From NCBI RefSeq assembly GCF_000024185.1, contig NC_013790.1:2293001-2357000 (forward strand): DNA of 64,000 bases. The letters are read 5' to 3'. This document shows, one piece after another, positions 2,530 through 50,276 of this stretch. The notes under the pieces are model-generated. The model was not told the origin of the DNA, searched no databases, and was given only the letters and a program-made list of their open reading frames with translations. Positions within the stretch are counted from its first letter, which is position 1. Every line of letters begins with the position of its first letter. Position numbers and translations under genes: made by a program. Origin of the DNA: Methanobrevibacter ruminantium M1. Lineage in GTDB: Archaea; Methanobacteriota; Methanobacteria; Methanobacteriales; Methanobacteriaceae.

Positions 2530-3034
2530 TAATAAAATTTGTAATAATTATTATTCGATTAATCAGTAGTTTAAAAAGATTTAAAAATTGCATTTACAGT
2601 TTTAAACTACTGAAATATAAAAATAAGAATAAATGACCTTTTTAAAATAAATCTAAATAAAATAAGTTTTATTTTAATAGGCGAAAAAATATCCTTATTT
2701 ATATATATTAAATATATGTTTATTTCTAATTATATAAAATAGTTTTTAATTGATTTTGGATAATAATAAATAAATTAAAAGTATGATGCCTTAATAGGAA
2801 TTTCTTTAAGACATCCTCAAGCTTAAAAATAGATTAAAAATAATAATATTAATAAGTTTTAAAAAGAGAAATTATAAAAATAATTGCTAAATTCACAAAT
2901 ATAAAATAAGAATTGGAATAAGACTAAAAGCAATTAAAAAAAAAGCACAATTAAAAAAATAAATTAATAAATAAAAAAAAGGAATAAAACACCAAATAAA
3001 GAAAAAAATAAAAAAAAAGAATAAATCAAGAGAT
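2530..3034. other. Non-coding spacer between mmp3 and the ABC transporter
   Basis: Very AT-rich and without a credible reading frame. The part nearest the transporter (about 2935-3025) carries several A-runs on the plus strand, which are T-runs on the minus strand just after the ATPase gene and probably terminate it. The other end should hold the promoter of mmp3. Confidence 0.6.
2935..3025 (-). terminator. Oligo-T terminator cluster after the ABC transporter operon
   Basis: Read on the minus strand, this stretch directly after the ATPase stop has several runs of 6 to 9 T separated by short AT spacers. Archaeal RNA polymerase terminates on such T tracts without a hairpin. Confidence 0.5.
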
Positions 3035-3718
3035 TTATTCATAAAACTTGCCTAAGAACTCTTTCATTCTTTGATTGTCAGATGAGAATACCTCTTCAGG
3101 TGAGCCCTCTTCCACAATGACACCCTCATCCATGAAGATAATTGTATCAGAAACATTTCTAGCAAAGTTCATCTCGTGGGTAACAATCACCATAGTCATA
3201 TGCTCAGCTGCCAAGTCCTTTATTACAGCTAATATCTCTCCTGTAAGCTCAGGGTCAAGTGCAGAGGTAGGCTCGTCAAAGAACAATATATCCGGCTTCA
3301 TGCAAAGAGCCCTTGCAATGGATACTCTTTGCTGTTGACCACCAGACAATTCTGAAGGGTATGCATCTTCCTTATCAGAAAGCCCCATTTTCTTTAGAAG
3401 GTCTCTTGCATGCTCGTAAACTTCAGCCTTGTCTCTCTTTTGAACCTTTAGAGGTGCATTGGTAATATTCTTCATTACAGAATGATGTGGGAAAAGATTG
3501 AAGTTCTGGAACACCAATCCAAAGGTTCCGTCAAAATTGATCTCACCGCTGTCCTCTGTCTCAAGGTCTGTTATGCATCTTAGCAATGTGGACTTACCGG
3601 ATCCGGATGGACCTATGATTGACAATACCTCACCCTTTTCAACGGAAAAGGAGATATCCTTCAAGACCACATTGTCTCCAAAGCTTTTCTTAAGATTCTT
3701 AACTTCCAATAAACTCAT
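3035..3718 (-). CDS. Polar amino acid ABC transporter, ATP-binding protein
   Basis: 227-aa ABC ATPase of the GlnQ/HisP type, the cytoplasmic motor for the permease and binding protein encoded upstream. The Walker A motif is GPSGSGKST, the signature is [15 protein letters not shown], Walker B is [13 protein letters not shown], and the switch His lies in [10 protein letters not shown]. The length fits the family. A longer frame uses a TTG at 3727, but the ATG at 3718 (MSLLEVKNL) matches family N termini and follows GAGTTGAT, so I use it. The substrate is probably a polar or charged amino acid; the sequence does not fix which. The gap to the permease gene is 36 bp. Confidence 0.93.
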
Positions 3719-3754
3719 TAAAATCAACTCTTAATAAAATATCTGATATCTCCC

Positions 3755-4408
3755 CTATGTATCGTAATAATCCAATCTCTTTTCAAAGCGTTCCATAATA
3801 ATTGCCACAAGCGCATTGAATACATAATAGAATCCACCTGCAATCAGCAATGCTGAAATGGAAGCTTCAGCTGCTGCAATCTGCTTTGCAACTGTAAACA
3901 TCTCTGGAATTGCAAGCACAAAGGAAAGTGAAGTGTCCTTTACAAGAGTGATTACCTCATTTGTAATTGATGGAAGCACTATCTTTACCACTTGAGGCAA
4001 GATGATTATAAAGAATGTTTGAACTCTGGTATATCCCAATACCTGTGCAGCTTCATATTGTCCGTTTGGAATGGATTCGATTCCTCCACGGAAGATCTCT
4101 GCAAAGTAAGCCGCATAGTTGATGGTGAAAGCAATTATAACTGCAATCATCCTGTAATCCCTTGAAAGTGTCATTCCGAATATATAATATGGACCAAAGA
4201 ATACAACAATCAGCTGCAGCATCAATGGAGTTCCTCTCATGATAGAAATATAAGCCTTCATAAACCATTGAAGTGGCTTGAAGCTGCTCATTCTTCCAGC
4301 AGCCACTGCCAAACCAAGTGGAATGGAAAACAGCAATGTAAGAAGGAATATTTCAATGGAGGTTCCCATACCCCATAATAATTCTTCTAAAATTTTACTT
4401 AATAACAT
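3755..4408 (-). CDS. Amino acid ABC transporter permease
   Basis: 217-aa inner-membrane permease of the HisM/GlnP type with about five hydrophobic spans. The EAA loop that contacts the ATPase is visible near the middle (FRGGIESIPNGQYEAAQVLG), which is diagnostic. It probably works as a homodimer, since only one permease gene is present. The ATG follows GGGGAGAAATTAA. It lies 281 bp downstream of the binding-protein gene, and that gap holds a strong terminator hairpin, so the permease and ATPase are probably made in smaller amounts than the binding protein. Confidence 0.92.
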   Translation of the reverse strand: MLLSKILEELLWGMGTSIEIFLLTLLFSIPLGLAVAAGRMSSFKPLQWFMKAYISIMRGTPLMLQLIVVFFGPYYIFGMTLSRDYRMIAVIIAFTINYAAYFAEIFRGGIESIPNGQYEAAQVLGYTRVQTFFIIILPQVVKIVLPSITNEVITLVKDTSLSFVLAIPEMFTVAKQIAAAEASISALLIAGGFYYVFNALVAIIMERFEKRLDYYDT

Positions 4409-42135: not shown

Positions 42136-42582
42136 CTGCCTCCTAAATTTTGATTTAAAAAATTACTTTAAATAGGAATTTAAAAACCTAATAAGTAATG
42201 GTATAGATTAATTTAAAGTGCTATTAATTAAATTAAATAAAAAATTAAATAACAATTAAAAATTAAACTAACATTATTAAATATAACACTTATTATATAT
42301 AAATATTCGGACTGTTTCATTATAAATTATAAATTTTTAAAATATTAAATTTTATTAAGGAAACATATGAAACACTTATAAAAATACTACTATTGAATGA
42401 AGAATCTTTTTAAATTCCTATAAAATAGTAGCATCTTTTCAGTGAAATGATTTTAGAAAAATTAATTATATCTTAAAATAAAAAAAATATTTTAAATAAT
42501 AAAATTAAATATAATAATAAAGCTTTAAATTATAAAGAAGTATACAATTTAATTTTGAATAAAACACAGAGGGGGATAAATA
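42136..42582. other. Divergent spacer between rpl30e and the HEPN-like gene
   Basis: 447 bp holding the promoters of both flanking genes. It contains a stem actactat/atagtag (about 42388 and 42426) and tgtttcat/atgaaaca arms further left. No gene seen. Confidence 0.5.
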
Positions 42583-43827
42583 ATGGCAAAATATGACATT
42601 TCAATGATTAAAGATAATAACTATTATAAAGAACAATGTGAACATGCTGAAGAATCTCTAAACAAAAAATGGTATTCTGAATCAATTTTAACAATGGCAA
42701 TAACTCTTGAAGAATTAACTGAAGAATTAATCAAATATACCAAAAATATTTCCGATGGAAAATTAAGTCAAAGAGATAAGATATGGATATTAAAAGATAA
42801 TGGAATCACCAATTACAATATATATAACTATTTACGTGAAGCAAACATCTCAAGAAACAAATTAGTACATGGAGAAATACCTAGAAATTATAGCAATACT
42901 TTTTCAATGTATAAAAACTTTTTAAAAATTGTATTTTGGTATGATGAAAATTATGTAATTGGAAAACTTAATACTAAAAGTAAACTAAAACAATATTTAA
43001 ATAAAGTTTGTGATGATTCACATATCCTCAATATCATAGAACAAGAAATTAATGATGGAGCAATAACTGAAAATCATCAAATAATTAAAAGACATAACAA
43101 AGAGTTAATTGATTATGTTGAATCTTTAAATATAGAATTAGAAATTAAAGAAAAATTAATAAAAGACATATATTCTGGAGTTACAAAAAATAGGTCCCAA
43201 ATAGAAGAAAAAATTAAGAGAGAAAAGAAAGATCCTATAATAGGTGTTGTAAACATAGTAAATACAGAAAACATGATGAAATACACAATCCAATCAACAG
43301 ATATTGACAAAGAAGTAAAAGAAAACATGGAAAAACTAGAAAACAACACACACGAAAACAAACAACTACAAGAAGACTACAACAAATACGGGCCGGAATC
43401 ATTCACTACAGAAACAGTAAACATATGCAAAAACGAAGAACTTAGCAAAATAACAAAAGAAGACGAAATAATATTCAATGCAAACAAATCATATAATAAT
43501 CGAAAAAAAGATATTAATCCTAAAATAGGCATTGCAAACATAATTAATACAGAAACCCTAATGAAATACACAATCCAATCAACAGACCTTGACAAAGAAA
43601 TCGAAGAAAATATAGGAAAACTAGAAAACAACACCCACGAAAATAAACAACTACAAGAGGATTACAACAAATACGGGCCGGAATCATTCACTATAGAAAC
43701 AGTAAACATATGCAAAAACGAAGAACTTAGCAAAATATTAAAAGAAGACGAAATAATATTCAATGCAAACAAATCCTATAATAACAATAAAAAAGAAGAA
43801 ACCGGAGAAAAAAATCATACCCTGTAA
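42583..43827 (+). CDS. HEPN-like domain protein with two degenerate GIY-YIG-like modules
   Basis: 414 aa. Residues 1-125 are helical with ISRNKLVHGE at 89-98, an R-N-x3-H motif (R91, H96) typical of HEPN domains, many of which are RNases. Residues 220-306 and 315-401 are two close copies of one module. Each reads like a GIY-YIG nuclease: a GVVNIVNTE strand where GIY would be, YTIQST where YIG would be, then LENNTHENKQLQEDYNKYG and SF, the familiar NxxH-N-LQ-NKYG-F signature. The catalytic Tyr, Gly and Arg positions are changed (GVV/GIA, TIQ, DKE), so both look inactive and may bind DNA or RNA. GAGGGGGATAAATA precedes the ATG. It converges on the hsp70/TPR genes. Assignment is by motif reading only. 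Confidence 0.75.
   Translation: MAKYDISMIKDNNYYKEQCEHAEESLNKKWYSESILTMAITLEELTEELIKYTKNISDGKLSQRDKIWILKDNGITNYNIYNYLREANISRNKLVHGEIPRNYSNTFSMYKNFLKIVFWYDENYVIGKLNTKSKLKQYLNKVCDDSHILNIIEQEINDGAITENHQIIKRHNKELIDYVESLNIELEIKEKLIKDIYSGVTKNRSQIEEKIKREKKDPIIGVVNIVNTENMMKYTIQSTDIDKEVKENMEKLENNTHENKQLQEDYNKYGPESFTTETVNICKNEELSKITKEDEIIFNANKSYNNRKKDINPKIGIANIINTETLMKYTIQSTDLDKEIEENIGKLENNTHENKQLQEDYNKYGPESFTIETVNICKNEELSKILKEDEIIFNANKSYNNNKKEETGEKNHTL
43240..43785 (+). repeat. Intragenic duplication of a 261-bp module
   Basis: 43240-43500 and 43525-43785 match along their length with mostly silent differences, 285 bp apart. The 3' halves are nearly identical (e.g. aaatacgggccggaatcatt in both), so the duplication or a gene conversion is recent. 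Confidence 0.9.
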
Positions 43828-43999
43828 AAAATCATAGCCCATAAAATCAATCTAACTTTTTTGCAATAGAGGAAAATAATCATTAAAAAAAAAACTAGAC
43901 AAGAAATTAGAAAACTAATTTAAAAAAAAATGTAAAAATTTAGTTATATAAAAAAATAATAAAATAGGACTCAAACATCCTATTTTTAATAGAAATTAA

Positions 44000-45736
44000 T
44001 TAATAATAAAAATCTTCAGATTCAATTTTTTCAATTAAATTTCGAAGATCTTTAGTAATTAATTTAATTAATTCAAAATTTTTTGGAATAACTAACAAAC
44101 CTTCAAGTTTTTCAATATTCTCGTTAACTCTATTTTTATCAGATATTAACATATGGCCACTATAGTTCTCGATTAGTTTTTTTCCTTCGAAAATAACTTC
44201 CTCAGCATCGTTAATAATATTTCTTTGTTTAATCTTTTCTTCATAATCACTTAAAAGATTCTCATTATCTAAACCTGCCTTCTTAATTTCTTCACTAGAC
44301 ATACGGTTACTTGAATCGAATGTCGCGGATAATTTTTTATTAGTGCTTAGTTCTTTTGCAGACAATCCCATTATTCCATTTTTATCAACTTTTAATTTAA
44401 CTTGGATTGCGACTTCGCCCTTAGGCCTTGGAGGAAGTCCCCTTAAAGTAAAAGAGTGAAGTGTATGATTTTCTTTTGCAAGAATAGATTCTCCCTCAAC
44501 GATTTGAATATTTGCACTTGTTTGATTATCACGCATAGTATGATATTCTTTAGTAACTTCTGCTGGAAGAGGAGTGTTTTTTGGAATAAGTGGATCAGAC
44601 TCTTTTTCATTAATTACAACACTCAATGTTAAAGAATTAATAGTGCCTACTGTAATTGGACCCCCTTTATATATGGATGCCCCTTGAGCAACGCATACCA
44701 TTGGATCAATACCTTCTGCAGCAGATTTGCCTAAAAGTTTTTCAATGCTTTCCCTAATAAGAGGCATTTTAGTAGGGCCTCCAACAAAAACCAAAAAGTC
44801 AATATCGTCTTTTGTTAATTTAGCATCCTTAAGTGCCTCAAGAACTTTTTCTTTACTTCCTTTTACAACTTCATCAGATAACTTATTTAAATCAGACCGG
44901 TTTACATTTTTATCCAAATTAATACGTTGCCCTTTATCAGTCATTACAATAGAATCTATATGAACATTAGTAGTTTTGGTGCTGGATAATTCTATCTTAG
45001 CGATTTCAGTAGCATTATACAAATCAATAAGAGGATCATATTCAGGAGTTATATAATCTTCTAGCTTTAATCCATTTTGTTCTTCAAAGTCTCTTTGAAG
45101 ATAATCCCGCAAAGCCATAGTAATATTCCGACCACCAAATCTAGCTCCAGTAGTGACTTTTGGAACAAGTTCAGAACCATCAAAGGCTCCAATGATAATG
45201 TCTAAAGTGCCCCCTCCCATATCGAATACTAAAATATTGCCTAAAAAATTTTTTGTGAGACTATAAGTCAAACATGCGGCTGTAGGTTCATCAACAAGAG
45301 CTTCGACTTCAAAACCAGCAATTTCCCCAGCTTCCATAGTTGCATTTCTAGCATCATTATCAAAACTAGCAGGTACGCTAATAACTGCTTTATTAATAGG
45401 TTTACCTAAATAAGCTTCAGCATCTCTTTTTATACGACCTAAAACATAAGAAGTAATCTCTTGAGGAAGTTTATCTTCACCATTAAATTTAATAGTTTCA
45501 TTTTCACCCATTTTTAATTTAAATTCTGCAACAGAATTACTAGCATTACTTGCCATTTGCTTTTTTGCATGATGTCCCACTAGCAATTCACCATTTTCAT
45601 TTACTGCAACAACACTAGGGAAATAATCATAACCCATAGCACTAGGAATTATTTGAAATTTTTCATCTTTATAAATACAAGCTGCAGAATTTGTAGTTCC
45701 AAAATCAATACCAATTATAATATCTTCATTATTCAA
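44000..45736 (-). CDS. Hsp70 family protein (DnaK-like)
   Basis: 578-aa Hsp70. The nucleotide-binding domain shows phosphate 1 GIDFGTTNSAACIY, phosphate 2 VLVFDMGGGTLDIIIGAF, and adenosine motif FLVFVGGPTKMPLIRESIEK. The substrate domain has MRDNQTSANIQIVEGE and HTLHSFTLRGLPPRPKG; the C-terminal lid is somewhat short. An ATP-driven chaperone, but its context (a TPR protein, no GrpE or DnaJ beside it) and its divergent sequence suggest a specialised Hsp70, not the housekeeping dnaK. The frame opens at 45754, but GGGGGT lies 6 nt before a TTG at 45736, which I choose. The TPR gene is 129 bp upstream. Confidence 0.9.
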   Translation of the reverse strand: MNNEDIIIGIDFGTTNSAACIYKDEKFQIIPSAMGYDYFPSVVAVNENGELLVGHHAKKQMASNASNSVAEFKLKMGENETIKFNGEDKLPQEITSYVLGRIKRDAEAYLGKPINKAVISVPASFDNDARNATMEAGEIAGFEVEALVDEPTAACLTYSLTKNFLGNILVFDMGGGTLDIIIGAFDGSELVPKVTTGARFGGRNITMALRDYLQRDFEEQNGLKLEDYITPEYDPLIDLYNATEIAKIELSSTKTTNVHIDSIVMTDKGQRINLDKNVNRSDLNKLSDEVVKGSKEKVLEALKDAKLTKDDIDFLVFVGGPTKMPLIRESIEKLLGKSAAEGIDPMVCVAQGASIYKGGPITVGTINSLTLSVVINEKESDPLIPKNTPLPAEVTKEYHTMRDNQTSANIQIVEGESILAKENHTLHSFTLRGLPPRPKGEVAIQVKLKVDKNGIMGLSAKELSTNKKLSATFDSSNRMSSEEIKKAGLDNENLLSDYEEKIKQRNIINDAEEVIFEGKKLIENYSGHMLISDKNRVNENIEKLEGLLVIPKNFELIKLITKDLRNLIEKIESEDFYY

Positions 45737-45865
45737 ATTAATACCCCCTAACAATTATTATATGATAATAACTATTAATCATTATCTAATCTTATTTATG
45801 GTTAGAATTCTTTAATTTTGACAAATTTCCTTACTTTTCGTTGAAATATATCAAATTCTCCTAAA

Positions 45866-47917
45866 TCACCAATTAAATTTTCCTTGTAATTTATCCAATT
45901 TTTTTAATTCGCCCTTAATTTCTTGTTGCAAAATCTTAATTTCACAATTAGAAATCATCCTCACAACATTGTTTTTAAATTCTTGTTCGTTTTTTGTGTC
46001 CTTAAAATTAAACTCATACTTTGAGTTTTCTTCCTGATTAGAAATACTATCCTCGGCACATTTATAACAAAAATATGCTAACTCATAAGCATCCATAGCA
46101 TTGTTTCCTGCTTTTACAGTAGTTTTAACAGATTGTGAATTCGCATAATCAAAGCAAATATTGCCCAAATTAAACCATCCTATAGGATATTTTTCTTTTT
46201 TAAGTTTTTTTCCTTTATTAATTTTCTTTTCTTTTTCATTTTTATAATCTTTTAACTTTAAATTTTTAATAATAAGCCAATTAAAGTCTTCTTCTTCAAG
46301 TATCTTTTCACGAGACTTTGAAGTTAATTTTAAAAAATACCTATATTTTTTGAGTTCAGATGTTTTTCCAATTGTTTTTCTTAGACGTTCAAGACTGAAA
46401 TTATAAGAAGCAGATCCAAACTTACCATTATAAAAGTCTTTAAAAGCAGATTTTAAAGTTTTAAGATCAACATCGGAAATACCACATTCATTTTTAATAT
46501 ATTCCAAATCATCTTGATAACACTGATTATTAATACCTGAAAGAATATTCATAGAACTTACATCTTGACACTCATTCAAATAAGATTCCATATCTTCCAA
46601 ATATGAATCCATTGATTCTTTTAAACCAGAAAAAGAAGATTTAATCTCCTTAGTTGAAAAATCATAATTATCAAAACGATGTTCTGGTTGATTTATATTT
46701 TCATCAGATAATAATTCATAATTATTTCTCAACTTATCTTCTATTTTTTGATTCACTTCCTCTTTATCATTTAAATTTTCATTTAACTTTTCAATCACTT
46801 CATCCTTTTCAATTAAATTATCATTTAACTTTTCAATCACTTCATCCTTTTCAATTAAATTATCATTTAACCTTTTATTAATTGCAATTTGGTTTTTTAA
46901 CTCAGTATTTACTCTTTTTTCAACATTCCTTTCATATTCAGAATTATTTTTTTTAATACGATTTTTAACTATATATTCCCTATTTTCATAAAAGTCATCG
47001 AGAGACATATCCTCGTCTAAAACATTTTCACGAATTAAATCATTAATATCATTGAAACTTAATTGTGAACTTTTAGAATAATCCATAAGTTCATTCAACA
47101 TTTTTTTATCATCAATAGACATCATTCCAAGTTTAAAGGATAAACCCTCAATTAAATCCTCTTCAAAACCTGCAGATTCAAATTTGTCTTCAATATTTTT
47201 ATCTTCATGGAATTTATCAATTTTATCTGCTAAAGGAGTATCATTTTCAAATAATCTAAAAATATCAAATTGCTTGTCCAAACCCTCTTCATCAAAACAA
47301 TACAATCTTTTATAGTCATTAGAAAAGTTTAAAAATTCATCAAGAATCCCTTTATCCAGAGATTGTTCAATTATACGAAATAGGCTATTGCATTTATAGT
47401 AATCATGCAATTCTTCCCAAGATAAATTATCAAAGGGTTTACTAAAATACTTGGGATCATTAATATATGATTCTTTTGATTTTTGATAATTTTTATATCT
47501 AATTTTTGCAACGTTAAGATCATACTTAGGATAAAATGGATTACCATAAATTATAGCAGAGTAGTACCAAGCATCTGCATGTTCTTCATCAAGTTCATTA
47601 ACTTTTTCAAAATACTTTAAAGCATCACCCAACTTATTTAAGCCAATGTAAGAAATACCAATACCAAATAAACTGCTAACATAATTTTCATCACTATTTA
47701 AAAGATTTCTAAATTTATCAATAGCATCTTGATATTTACCCATCCTATTCAAAAGATGGCCATGGTCATCAAGAACAAGAGAATTAGGAGAAAGAGAATG
47801 ATTTAACTCAGCCTCAAAACGTATATCTGCTTCAGTAAAATTACCCTTACGGGCAAAAATACGGCCAAGCTCCCAATTATTACAATTAAAATCATCATTA
47901 GAACCTTTATTTACCAC
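45866..47917 (-). CDS. Tetratricopeptide-repeat and coiled-coil protein
   Basis: 683 aa, not a known named protein. TPR-like helix pairs at about residues 10-115 (ELGRIFARKGNFTEADIRFE, then LLNRMGKYQDAIDKFRNLL and YFEKVNELDEEHADAWYY). The middle holds a coiled coil with three 14-residue units (LIEKDEVIEKLNDN type) near residues 345-390, and the C-terminal third is Lys-rich and helical with another TPR-like segment (GWFNLGNICFDYANS). Probably a cytoplasmic scaffold or co-chaperone for the Hsp70 encoded downstream. The frame begins at TTG 47935, but AGAGGTG stands 5 nt before a GTG at 47917, which I take as the start. Confidence 0.8.
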   Translation of the reverse strand: MVNKGSNDDFNCNNWELGRIFARKGNFTEADIRFEAELNHSLSPNSLVLDDHGHLLNRMGKYQDAIDKFRNLLNSDENYVSSLFGIGISYIGLNKLGDALKYFEKVNELDEEHADAWYYSAIIYGNPFYPKYDLNVAKIRYKNYQKSKESYINDPKYFSKPFDNLSWEELHDYYKCNSLFRIIEQSLDKGILDEFLNFSNDYKRLYCFDEEGLDKQFDIFRLFENDTPLADKIDKFHEDKNIEDKFESAGFEEDLIEGLSFKLGMMSIDDKKMLNELMDYSKSSQLSFNDINDLIRENVLDEDMSLDDFYENREYIVKNRIKKNNSEYERNVEKRVNTELKNQIAINKRLNDNLIEKDEVIEKLNDNLIEKDEVIEKLNENLNDKEEVNQKIEDKLRNNYELLSDENINQPEHRFDNYDFSTKEIKSSFSGLKESMDSYLEDMESYLNECQDVSSMNILSGINNQCYQDDLEYIKNECGISDVDLKTLKSAFKDFYNGKFGSASYNFSLERLRKTIGKTSELKKYRYFLKLTSKSREKILEEEDFNWLIIKNLKLKDYKNEKEKKINKGKKLKKEKYPIGWFNLGNICFDYANSQSVKTTVKAGNNAMDAYELAYFCYKCAEDSISNQEENSKYEFNFKDTKNEQEFKNNVVRMISNCEIKILQQEIKGELKKLDKLQGKFNW
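46779..46876 (-). repeat. 42-bp in-frame repeats in the TPR protein gene
   Basis: Units begin at 46779, 46821 and 46863 on the plus strand. The first two are near identical at the DNA level and encode 14-residue (two-heptad) coiled-coil units. Confidence 0.85.
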
Positions 47918-47987
47918 AACTACACCTCTCGACAAAAAACTAAAAAGAAAAAATTAAAAATAATAGTAATTATTATTTTATTAAAAA

Positions 47988-48000
47988 AATATATAAAATT
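47988..48000 (-). promoter_or_regulatory. TATA-like element of the TPR-hsp70 genes
   Basis: Minus strand AATTTTATATATT, about 70-80 nt before the GTG start of the TPR gene. A likely promoter for an operon separate from the RNA polymerase genes. Confidence 0.4.
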
Positions 48001-48638
48001 TTTTATAAAATCTAAAAAATCGGAAAAAATAGACCTTGAAAATAGATAAAATAATAAAAAATAATAAAAAAAGTATAAAAGTATAAAAAAATGAAAATAA
48101 AAATAATTGAGGATAATATCAATAGGAAATTCTAAAATATGAAAAAGTAAATAAATTAAAAATTATTTTTAAATTATGTTTTTCAACATTATGTGACATT
48201 TTAGCCAATAATTTCCTTTTCAATAAAATAACTTTTTACAATTTCTATCTTTTTGTTAGAAAAATCAGTAATAAGAAAAGCAATTTAATTTTTGCATTCC
48301 TTATGAACTAATTAATTAATTCTGCGGAGTGAAATGTTTTTGAATATTGTTCAGAAATGTCATAAATAAAAGATTTCAAAACATTATCTCTTTTAACTTC
48401 AGCAACAATACTTCCACATTTATCAAAAGAAAGATTTATATCTCTCCTTTATAACAAAATTATTTTATTGTTATTGTCACCAATATGTAAATTAATAATT
48501 ATTTATCAAAATCATTAAAAATTAAATAGATAATAACAATTATTTTTAATATTTAACATCATAATAAATAAATAAATAAATAAGGCAATATGATAATTAA
48601 AACTAAATTAAGGATTATTGTACCATTTATTAGTACTT
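48001..48638. other. Spacer between rpoA2 and the TPR gene, with a gene remnant
   Basis: About 640 bp. The part 48201-48448 contains two broken coding pieces (see that entry). The part next to rpoA2 (48450-48630) is AT-rich and probably terminates the polymerase operon. Confidence 0.5.
48201..48448 (-). pseudogene. Remnant of a small protein gene
   Basis: On the minus strand one open piece (48448 to 48308) reads INLSFDKCGSIVAEVKRDNV then LKSFIYDISEQYSK, with a ribosome-like GGAGAGAT at its head but no start codon. About 24 bp further, in another frame, 28 codons (48284 to 48201) read IAFLITDFSNKKIEIVKSYF, IEKEIIG and stop. Their balanced composition differs from the surrounding AT-rich noise, so I read this as one decayed gene of about 80 codons with a lost start, a frameshift and a stop. 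Parent family not recognised. Confidence 0.45.
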
Positions 48639-50276
48639 TCAGGGAGTAATACCACTATTAACCTCCTTAGATTCAGAAGCACTACCACCAGACTTACCTT
48701 TACCGCCTTTAGCAATACCACTATTAACCTCCTTAGATTCAGAAGCACTACCACCAGACTTACCTTTACCGCCTTTAGCAATACCACTATTAACCTCCTT
48801 AGATTCAGAAGCACTACCACCAGACTTACCTTTACCACGTTTAGTTATACCTGCAGTAATAGGATATGCATCTGGTTTCATTGTAACACTTACAGAACCT
48901 GTACCAAGAGGTATAGGTTGACCTATAATAATGTTTTCAATGATTCCAGTGAGATCATCAACTTCTCCTCTGATACTTGCGTGAAGCAAGTGCTTACCGG
49001 TTTCTTCGAATGCAGCACGAGCAAGAACACTTGATTTCTCACCACTGATACCATGTCTACCAATGGACTTGACAGTTCCTTCGGAAGTCATCATGTCTGC
49101 AACCAACATGATGTGCCTGATGTCTACAGTCAAACCTTGGTCAGATAGGGTACGGTTAAGCTCATAGACAATAGCATTACGAGCTGCTTCAATACCTAAA
49201 ACAACTTCTATCTCGTGAATGTCGTTTGTAGTGGATCTTACCTTGTCAATACCTTCAATCTTAAAGATTGCGCCAAGGTTGGAACCTTCGGTATGAAGAA
49301 CCCATTCAGCATCGTCCTTACGAATAATAACTTTACCGATACCTTTGGTACCACTAATCTGCAAGTCACGGACCTTATCACCGAGAAGTCTAAGTTCTCT
49401 GATGGTTCTTTTGCTAGGTTCAAAGATTAATGTAATGTTTTCATCTGATTTTTTAAGATTGATGTTGGAAGGCTCTTGGACTTCTTCATCTGAAACTTGA
49501 ATAGTTTCACTATCTTCTTCAGAATCAGCTTTAGCCATACCAGTTTCCTCAGCATCAGAATCCGCTTTAGCCATACCAGTTTCATCCACTTTATCGACCT
49601 TAGCAATGTCGGTTTCTTCAACATCAGAATCGACATCTTCAATATCTTTAGCCTCTTCTTCAATAAGCTCATCGTCACCATAATTAATGATTTCGAGCTT
49701 TTTGAATGTCTTTTGAACACGACTAATAATATCATCTATATCAAGTCTTCTAGACTCGATTTTCTCATTGTCAAGTACAGTGACAATCTTATAATTGAAG
49801 TAGTCAATGTCATAATCAGCTAAAATATCATTGATTGTGCTTTTACCGATTTGGTTTGCTAACTTTCTGACGAATTCCTCGTCGTTCTTGTACTCATCTT
49901 CGAAGTAAATGTCCATTGTAGGAGTGGAAATCTTTTTCCTTGCATCTACAATTTCAATAAGCCTAGGTAACCCTAATGTTACGTTTAATTCCGCTACCCC
50001 TGCGTAGTGAAAAGTACGCATGGTCATCTGAGTACCAGGTTCACCTACAGATTGAGCTGCAACAGTTCCTACAGCTTCACCTGCTTCAATATGAGCACGT
50101 TCATAAGCTTCTTCGACCTTAAGAACTAAAGTGTTCAATTCCTTATCAGTCAAATCTCTTCTGATATAAGCACTTGCCAATTCATCAATATAACTTTGAG
50201 GAAAGTCAATTTTATTCTTTTTAAGTACTTTTTCAACCTTTTTAATTGCATCAAGTTTTGCTTCAGCATCTACCAT
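48639..50276 (-). CDS. rpoA2: DNA-directed RNA polymerase subunit A''
   Basis: 545 aa, the C-terminal part of the split large subunit, carrying the trigger-loop region ([20 protein letters not shown]) and bridging parts of the jaw. Archaeal A'' is usually near 380-450 aa; this one has two additions. One is an acidic insert at about residues 205-260 with [20 protein letters not shown]-like repeats. The other is a C-terminal tail with three copies of a 22-residue unit ([20 protein letters not shown]). AAGGAGGCAATTTT precedes the ATG, and rpoA1 ends 12 bp upstream. The conserved domains look intact, so the enzyme should work. Confidence 0.97.
48655..48845 (-). repeat. 66-bp tandem repeats at the 3' end of rpoA2
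   Basis: Three nearly identical units (starts at 48655, 48721 and 48787 on the plus strand) encode a 22-residue Gly/Ser/Lys unit. The last unit in transcription order runs straight into the stop codon. Confidence 0.9.

Follow-up and report, generated by a model that had tools for sequence, protein, structure and literature searches.

The active site of GIY-YIG nucleases has been dissected by mutagenesis (PMC1952068). In the homing endonuclease I-TevI the substitutions Y6A and E75A abolish cleavage, and changes of R27 or N90 strongly reduce it with residual activity left. In R.Eco29kI the mutations Y49A, R104A and E142A, at the counterparts of I-TevI Y6, R27 and E75, affect mostly catalysis and reduce DNA binding slightly, and H108, the counterpart of H31, matters for binding. 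GIY-YIG domains are also found in multi-domain proteins such as the anti-phage membrane nuclease SNIPE, in which the domain is joined to DUF4041, is catalytic and is required (PMC13190303). A HEPN domain is one N-terminal addition of DndF, where it was interpreted as a back-up suicide effector (PMC10853773). For HEPN domains of the DUF4145 type, a HEPN survey gives a motif that is ~80% conserved and lists restriction enzymes, zinc ribbons and transmembrane segments as fusion partners (PMC3710099). A fusion of HEPN and GIY-YIG domains is not mentioned in the accessible portions of that survey, which lists HEPN fusions to many nucleases, nor in those of a GIY-YIG survey, which lists fusions to many partners (PMC1564403).

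The window analyzed here is a stretch of 64,000 nucleotides from a rumen methanogen of the genus Methanobrevibacter, whose genome is a single contig of 2,937,203 bases (2.94 Mb). Its gene P0001 codes for a protein in which a HEPN domain precedes two tandem GIY-YIG modules. The combination is real and so far unique: its parts are known and their arrangement is new. The features are, in window coordinates:

42136..48638, strand not assigned: 6.5-kb insertion with P0001, an HSP70-like gene and a TPR gene, between rpl30e and rpoA'' (locus comparison)
42569..42575, plus strand: Shine-Dalgarno-like GAGGGGG, 7 nt 5' of the P0001 ATG (read in the sequence)
42583..43827, plus strand: gene P0001, HEPN and double GIY-YIG, 414 aa (open reading frame with ATG; coding constraint from module comparison)
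42619..42972, plus strand: HEPN domain of DUF4145 type, residues 13-130, five helices (held-out profile, AF2, Foldseek)
42853..42870, plus strand: motif R91-N92-K93-L94-V95-H96 at the end of helix 78-95 (alignment, AF2)
42973..43227, plus strand: helical linker (residues 131-215), in which a single long predicted helix spans 161-214 (AF2)
43243..43500, plus strand: degenerate GIY-YIG module 1, residues 221-306 (profiles, AF2, Foldseek, alignment)
43528..43785, plus strand: degenerate GIY-YIG module 2, residues 316-401 (profiles, alignment; lower AF2 confidence)

The open reading frame, its coordinates and its length are as first proposed. The original prediction knew of no described protein with this layout, and none with a HEPN domain and two GIY-YIG modules was found elsewhere in the genomes, viral contigs and plasmids searched. 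Full-length relatives are absent from viral_contigs, genome_contigs, plasmids, 139 genomes of the family and 152 of the phylum, and the architecture is found so far in one genome only. Among ~145 GIY-YIG frames collected, no other carries a second module or a HEPN domain. P0001 may well be a HEPN-headed effector or adaptor whose former homing-endonuclease modules bind protein or regulate the HEPN domain, a reading that is preferred here with middling confidence.

The assignment of residues ~13-130 to a HEPN domain is supported by profiles, AlphaFold and Foldseek, as had been expected from the sequence. A HEPN profile rebuilt without P0001, to avoid circularity, recovers the protein with 49 bits (E=5.1e-13), and none of 1000 shuffled sequences was reported by the held-out HEPN and GIY-YIG profiles. 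The N-terminal block is modeled as a confident helical bundle (pLDDT mostly 88-96). The leading Foldseek matches of this model are HEPN proteins, among them AF_0298 (probability 1.00, TMt 0.71) and SO_3166/HepT (probability up to 1.00); no E value is below 0.001, the best being 0.09. Pfam, NCBIfam and PHROGs gave no usable match with the N-terminal part alone, and PF13643 (DUF4145) does not match P0001. Membership in the DUF4145 type follows from the profile shared with relatives that match PF13643 just under the cut-off (E 0.0002-0.08). The R91-N92-x3-H96 motif noticed earlier in a helical N-terminal domain is present, at the end of the modeled helix 78-95.

The same head is found on other proteins. 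Two weak matches were obtained, one to the DndF/DptF of the same genome (L006, identified by TIGR03238 and PADLOC; E=0.013) and one to a frame of 181 aa (L052/L060, E=0.0017) that lies immediately 5' of a DndF-like frame in a relative from the genus. When 139 family genomes were searched with a profile of these two leads and the P0001 head (A4, three sequences), the head was detected in 42, and the other 18 members of the genus are all among them. Three further proteins of the P0001 genome carry it, one of them of a genus-wide type; no match to the P0001 N-terminal part was found in phages and viral_contigs. HEPN-headed proteins, which occur in each of the 18 further genomes of the genus that were searched, form a set with testable functions in Methanobrevibacter. 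The head of P0001 resembles the DndF/DptF amino terminus (TIGR03238, PF13643) in its five-helix bundle, E43, R91-N92...H96 and N-terminal position. P0001 differs from these proteins by lacking the ATPase core, by the GIY-YIG modules in its C-terminal part and by the lack of a Pfam model match; neither TIGR03238 nor PADLOC DndF, whose P-loop core follows the head, matches it. Like P0001, the proteins L120 (G000:C1:1363500-1368500, 622 aa) and L119 (G000:C1:1649000-1653500, frame of 1569 aa) have a HEPN head, a linker and repeated small modules, but their ~50-aa repeats, of type YEGVFYEDGLFMWSAEVDGKHLGLFSSEKEAYEKREEYI, are not GIY-YIG. An AP2 identity of these repeats was suggested by eye and dropped, PF00847 finding none in the genome. 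L071-L083 of the genus are also HEPN-headed, and the L120-type family is widespread in Methanobrevibacter. In L069 (G011:C18) the head is combined with an apparent transmembrane segment and a C-terminal Ada_Zn_binding match (E=1e-5).

RNase activity is a candidate function of the P0001 HEPN domain, with the chances about even judging from its sequence. The original prediction named conservation of R91/H96 in relatives as a check. It holds for the histidine, kept in 22 of 23 HEPN relatives, and in part for the arginine, present in 16 and replaced in seven (Gly in 5, Ala in 1, Ser in 1). Because R91 is absent from those seven, the head of P0001 may be structural, and the protein a structural adaptor without enzyme activity in which the HEPN head acts as a dimerization scaffold only. 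This alternative is a possible one, put forward tentatively. E43, invariant among the relatives aligned, fits it together with the substitutions at R91, as does the presence of one head type on very different C-terminal parts. It is opposed by the retention of both R91 and H96 in P0001 and most genus members, and by the description of the DUF4145 motif as mostly conserved (PMC3710099).

Residues 221-306 and 316-401 are supported as GIY-YIG domains both by sequence and by structure models, and the N...H.N..LQ..NKYG..F pattern read earlier in the two modules was borne out. A GIY-YIG profile built with the window left out matches module 1 with E=3.5e-12 and module 2 with E=4.9e-11. The modules also match phrog_7168 in PHROGs (2e-11), HEase in PADLOC (7e-12) and phage homing endonucleases (35% identity, 6e-6); the match with I-TevI is 0.02 with phmmer and 2e-26 with a profile that includes relatives. 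Module 1 is modeled with the beta-beta-alpha-alpha-beta-alpha order of the GIY-YIG fold at pLDDT >90 over most of its length, and its top Foldseek matches are the I-TevI catalytic domain (E 0.001-0.003, probability 1.00, TMt 0.64-0.76). The lower confidence for module 2 is explained by the alignment, in which all relatives lined up with copy 1. Fold and element order are thus shared with I-TevI and with phage and archaeal GIY-YIG homing endonucleases (phrog_7168, PADLOC HEase, 1mk0/1ln0), as are N10, Y17, H40, Q46, NKYG, F and N90. P0001 differs from I-TevI-type enzymes by lacking Y6, G19, R27 and H31, by its acidity and by its two tandem copies, and from homing endonucleases also by having no DNA-binding domain after the modules: no known domain was found at the C-terminus, which lies 13 residues past module 2. 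In the linker, a weak, sub-threshold 'Paratox' match at residues 152-179 was set aside. A likeness of the linker to the helical repeats of L049 was only suggestive, 48 of 1993 shuffles scoring equally high.

The active sites were compared, in I-TevI numbering, with those of 102 other GIY-YIG modules. Four columns are substituted in modules 1 and 2, respectively: Y6 (Y in 96/102) by V223 and A318, G19 (G in 100/102) by I236 and I331, R27 (R in 96/102) by E244 and E339, and H31 (H in 96/102) by N248 and N343. Y17 is retained as Y234/Y329, H40 as H257/H352 and N90 as N305/N400, and E75 is plausibly E293/E388, in a region where the alignment is uncertain. Both modules also preserve N10, Q46, K51, G53 and F, which are residues of the fold. 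The replacement of GIY by GVV or GIA and the glutamate at the usual arginine position had been recognized before. The reported change of YIG to TIQ was one residue out of register: every alignment gives Y-T-I, with the tyrosine kept and the glycine lost. The loss of H31 and the retention of H40, N90 and probably E75 come in addition to the earlier observations, as do the tandem duplication and strong acidity of the modules and the assignment of the head to the DUF4145 type known from DndF. Since Y6 and R27 are both missing, loss of cleavage is very likely in both modules, to judge from these substitutions and the published mutagenesis (PMC1952068), and their description as catalytically dead is well supported at that level. 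With Y17, H40, N90 and probably E75 in place, a residual or altered chemistry may be conceivable.

The Methanobacteriaceae proteins L049, L051 and L053 also have GIY-YIG modules in which the R27 column lacks Arg. Unlike those of P0001, they keep G19 along with Y17, have Phe at Y6, occur as a single module without HEPN and have charges of -3 to +8; zinc ribbons are present in L049/L058 and L051. L049/L058 (G107:C63) has helical repeats and zinc ribbons (L058), L051 (G106:C21) transmembrane-like and zinc-ribbon parts, and L053 (G120:C8) stands alone. P0001 resembles SNIPE by the presence of GIY-YIG in a multi-domain protein, which in SNIPE is anti-phage, and differs from it by its substituted active sites, the SNIPE domain being catalytic and required, and by its HEPN domain, which SNIPE lacks (PMC13190303). 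A coiled-coil frame followed by a T5orf172/MUG113-like GIY-YIG frame in L039 (G004:C20:45900-50100, ~2645-4166 of the locus) is reminiscent of SNIPE by eye.

The net charge of the modules is -7 and -8, below that of every one of 99 relatives (mean +1.3, SD 2.8, minimum -5), and the segment of the active-site helix has -3 and -4 against a mean of +3.8 in relatives. The original prediction had the dead modules kept as nucleic-acid binders that guide the HEPN RNase to a target. This acidity, the charge inversion of the active-site-helix segment and the loss of H31, which corresponds to the R.Eco29kI binding residue H108, speak against that role and make it unlikely, as does the lack of a NUMOD-like DNA-binding domain of the sort that follows many homing-endonuclease modules. 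What speaks for it is the descent of the modules from homing endonucleases, the retained fold and several former active-site residues, the slight effect of Y49A, R104A and E142A on DNA binding by R.Eco29kI (PMC1952068) and the suitability of tandem copies for avidity. The charge is more in line with protein binding or with a nucleic-acid-mimic role, and it is moderately likely that the modules bind protein rather than nucleic acid. Net charge is an indirect measure, however, since local contacts with nucleic acid can be made even by an acidic domain.

Modules 1 and 2 arose by tandem duplication and form direct repeats of 280 nt, with 90% identity in DNA and 85% in protein. The copies differ by 28 nucleotides and 13 residues, where ~20 residue differences are expected by random change (P=0.001, simulation), and dN/dS between them is ~0.25-0.3. 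This pattern of purifying selection indicates that the protein-coding sequence of the modules was maintained since duplication. It argues, with the open 414-aa frame and its good ribosome site, against P0001 being a functionless, decaying homing-endonuclease remnant fused by chance, which is quite improbable in spite of its occurrence in one genome only, its missing catalytic residues and its location in an inserted segment. A further, improbable proposal takes the acidic dead modules as nucleic-acid mimics. They would sit in cis in the RNase site of the HEPN domain and keep it inactive until a virus or mobile element came in and one of its factors, GIY-YIG-binding or DNA-processing, removed them and freed the RNase. 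If true, P0001 would unite a HEPN effector with its own antitoxin and sensor, derived from a homing endonuclease.

Under the preferred reading, an effector or adaptor with protein-binding or regulatory modules, P0001 would be a young chimera. It would have originated by fusion of a DUF4145-type HEPN head, of the kind also used in Methanobrevibacter on DndF and other multi-domain proteins, with a GIY-YIG domain of the type seen in phage homing endonucleases. A long helix connects the two, and tandem duplication of the GIY-YIG domain followed. Both copies retain the fold. Their catalysis has very likely gone and the segment of the active-site helix is no longer basic, so that they most likely serve as protein-binding or regulatory modules that could, for example, sense a partner or restrain the HEPN domain. 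The HEPN domain, probably dimeric, would act as RNase effector or scaffold. With its charge inverted and its catalysis lost, and with duplication under selection thereafter, the GIY-YIG domain would be a clear example of how a selfish DNA nuclease can be turned to regulatory or binding use.

A role of P0001 in conflict or defense is plausible. The survey of its gene neighborhood in Methanobrevibacter, suggested with the original prediction, found rpoA'' and rpl30e side by side in seven genus relatives, while three genes intervene in the P0001 genome. P0001 is the sole gene on its own strand at the insertion. The opposite strand and convergent orientation of the HSP70-like and TPR genes rule out one operon of the three. 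No partner, antitoxin or defense operon was found among the adjoining genes, and an adjacent MNT antitoxin gene, as in HEPN/MNT toxin-antitoxin pairs, is absent, P0001 being flanked by rpl30e and the HSP70-like gene. The end of the rpoA'' gene carries three 66-nt tandem repeats (window 48645-48851) that are lacking in rpoA'' of L157 and L158. The rpoA''-rpl30e junction resembles an insertion hotspot (window 42136-48638; L149 and L158, G009:C9:217200-243000). In G009 the same junction holds HSP70-like, coiled-coil, TPR-like, ClpA/B-like (by eye) and zinc-ribbon genes, together with another rpoA''-like frame, the second there, which is diverged and 422 aa long.
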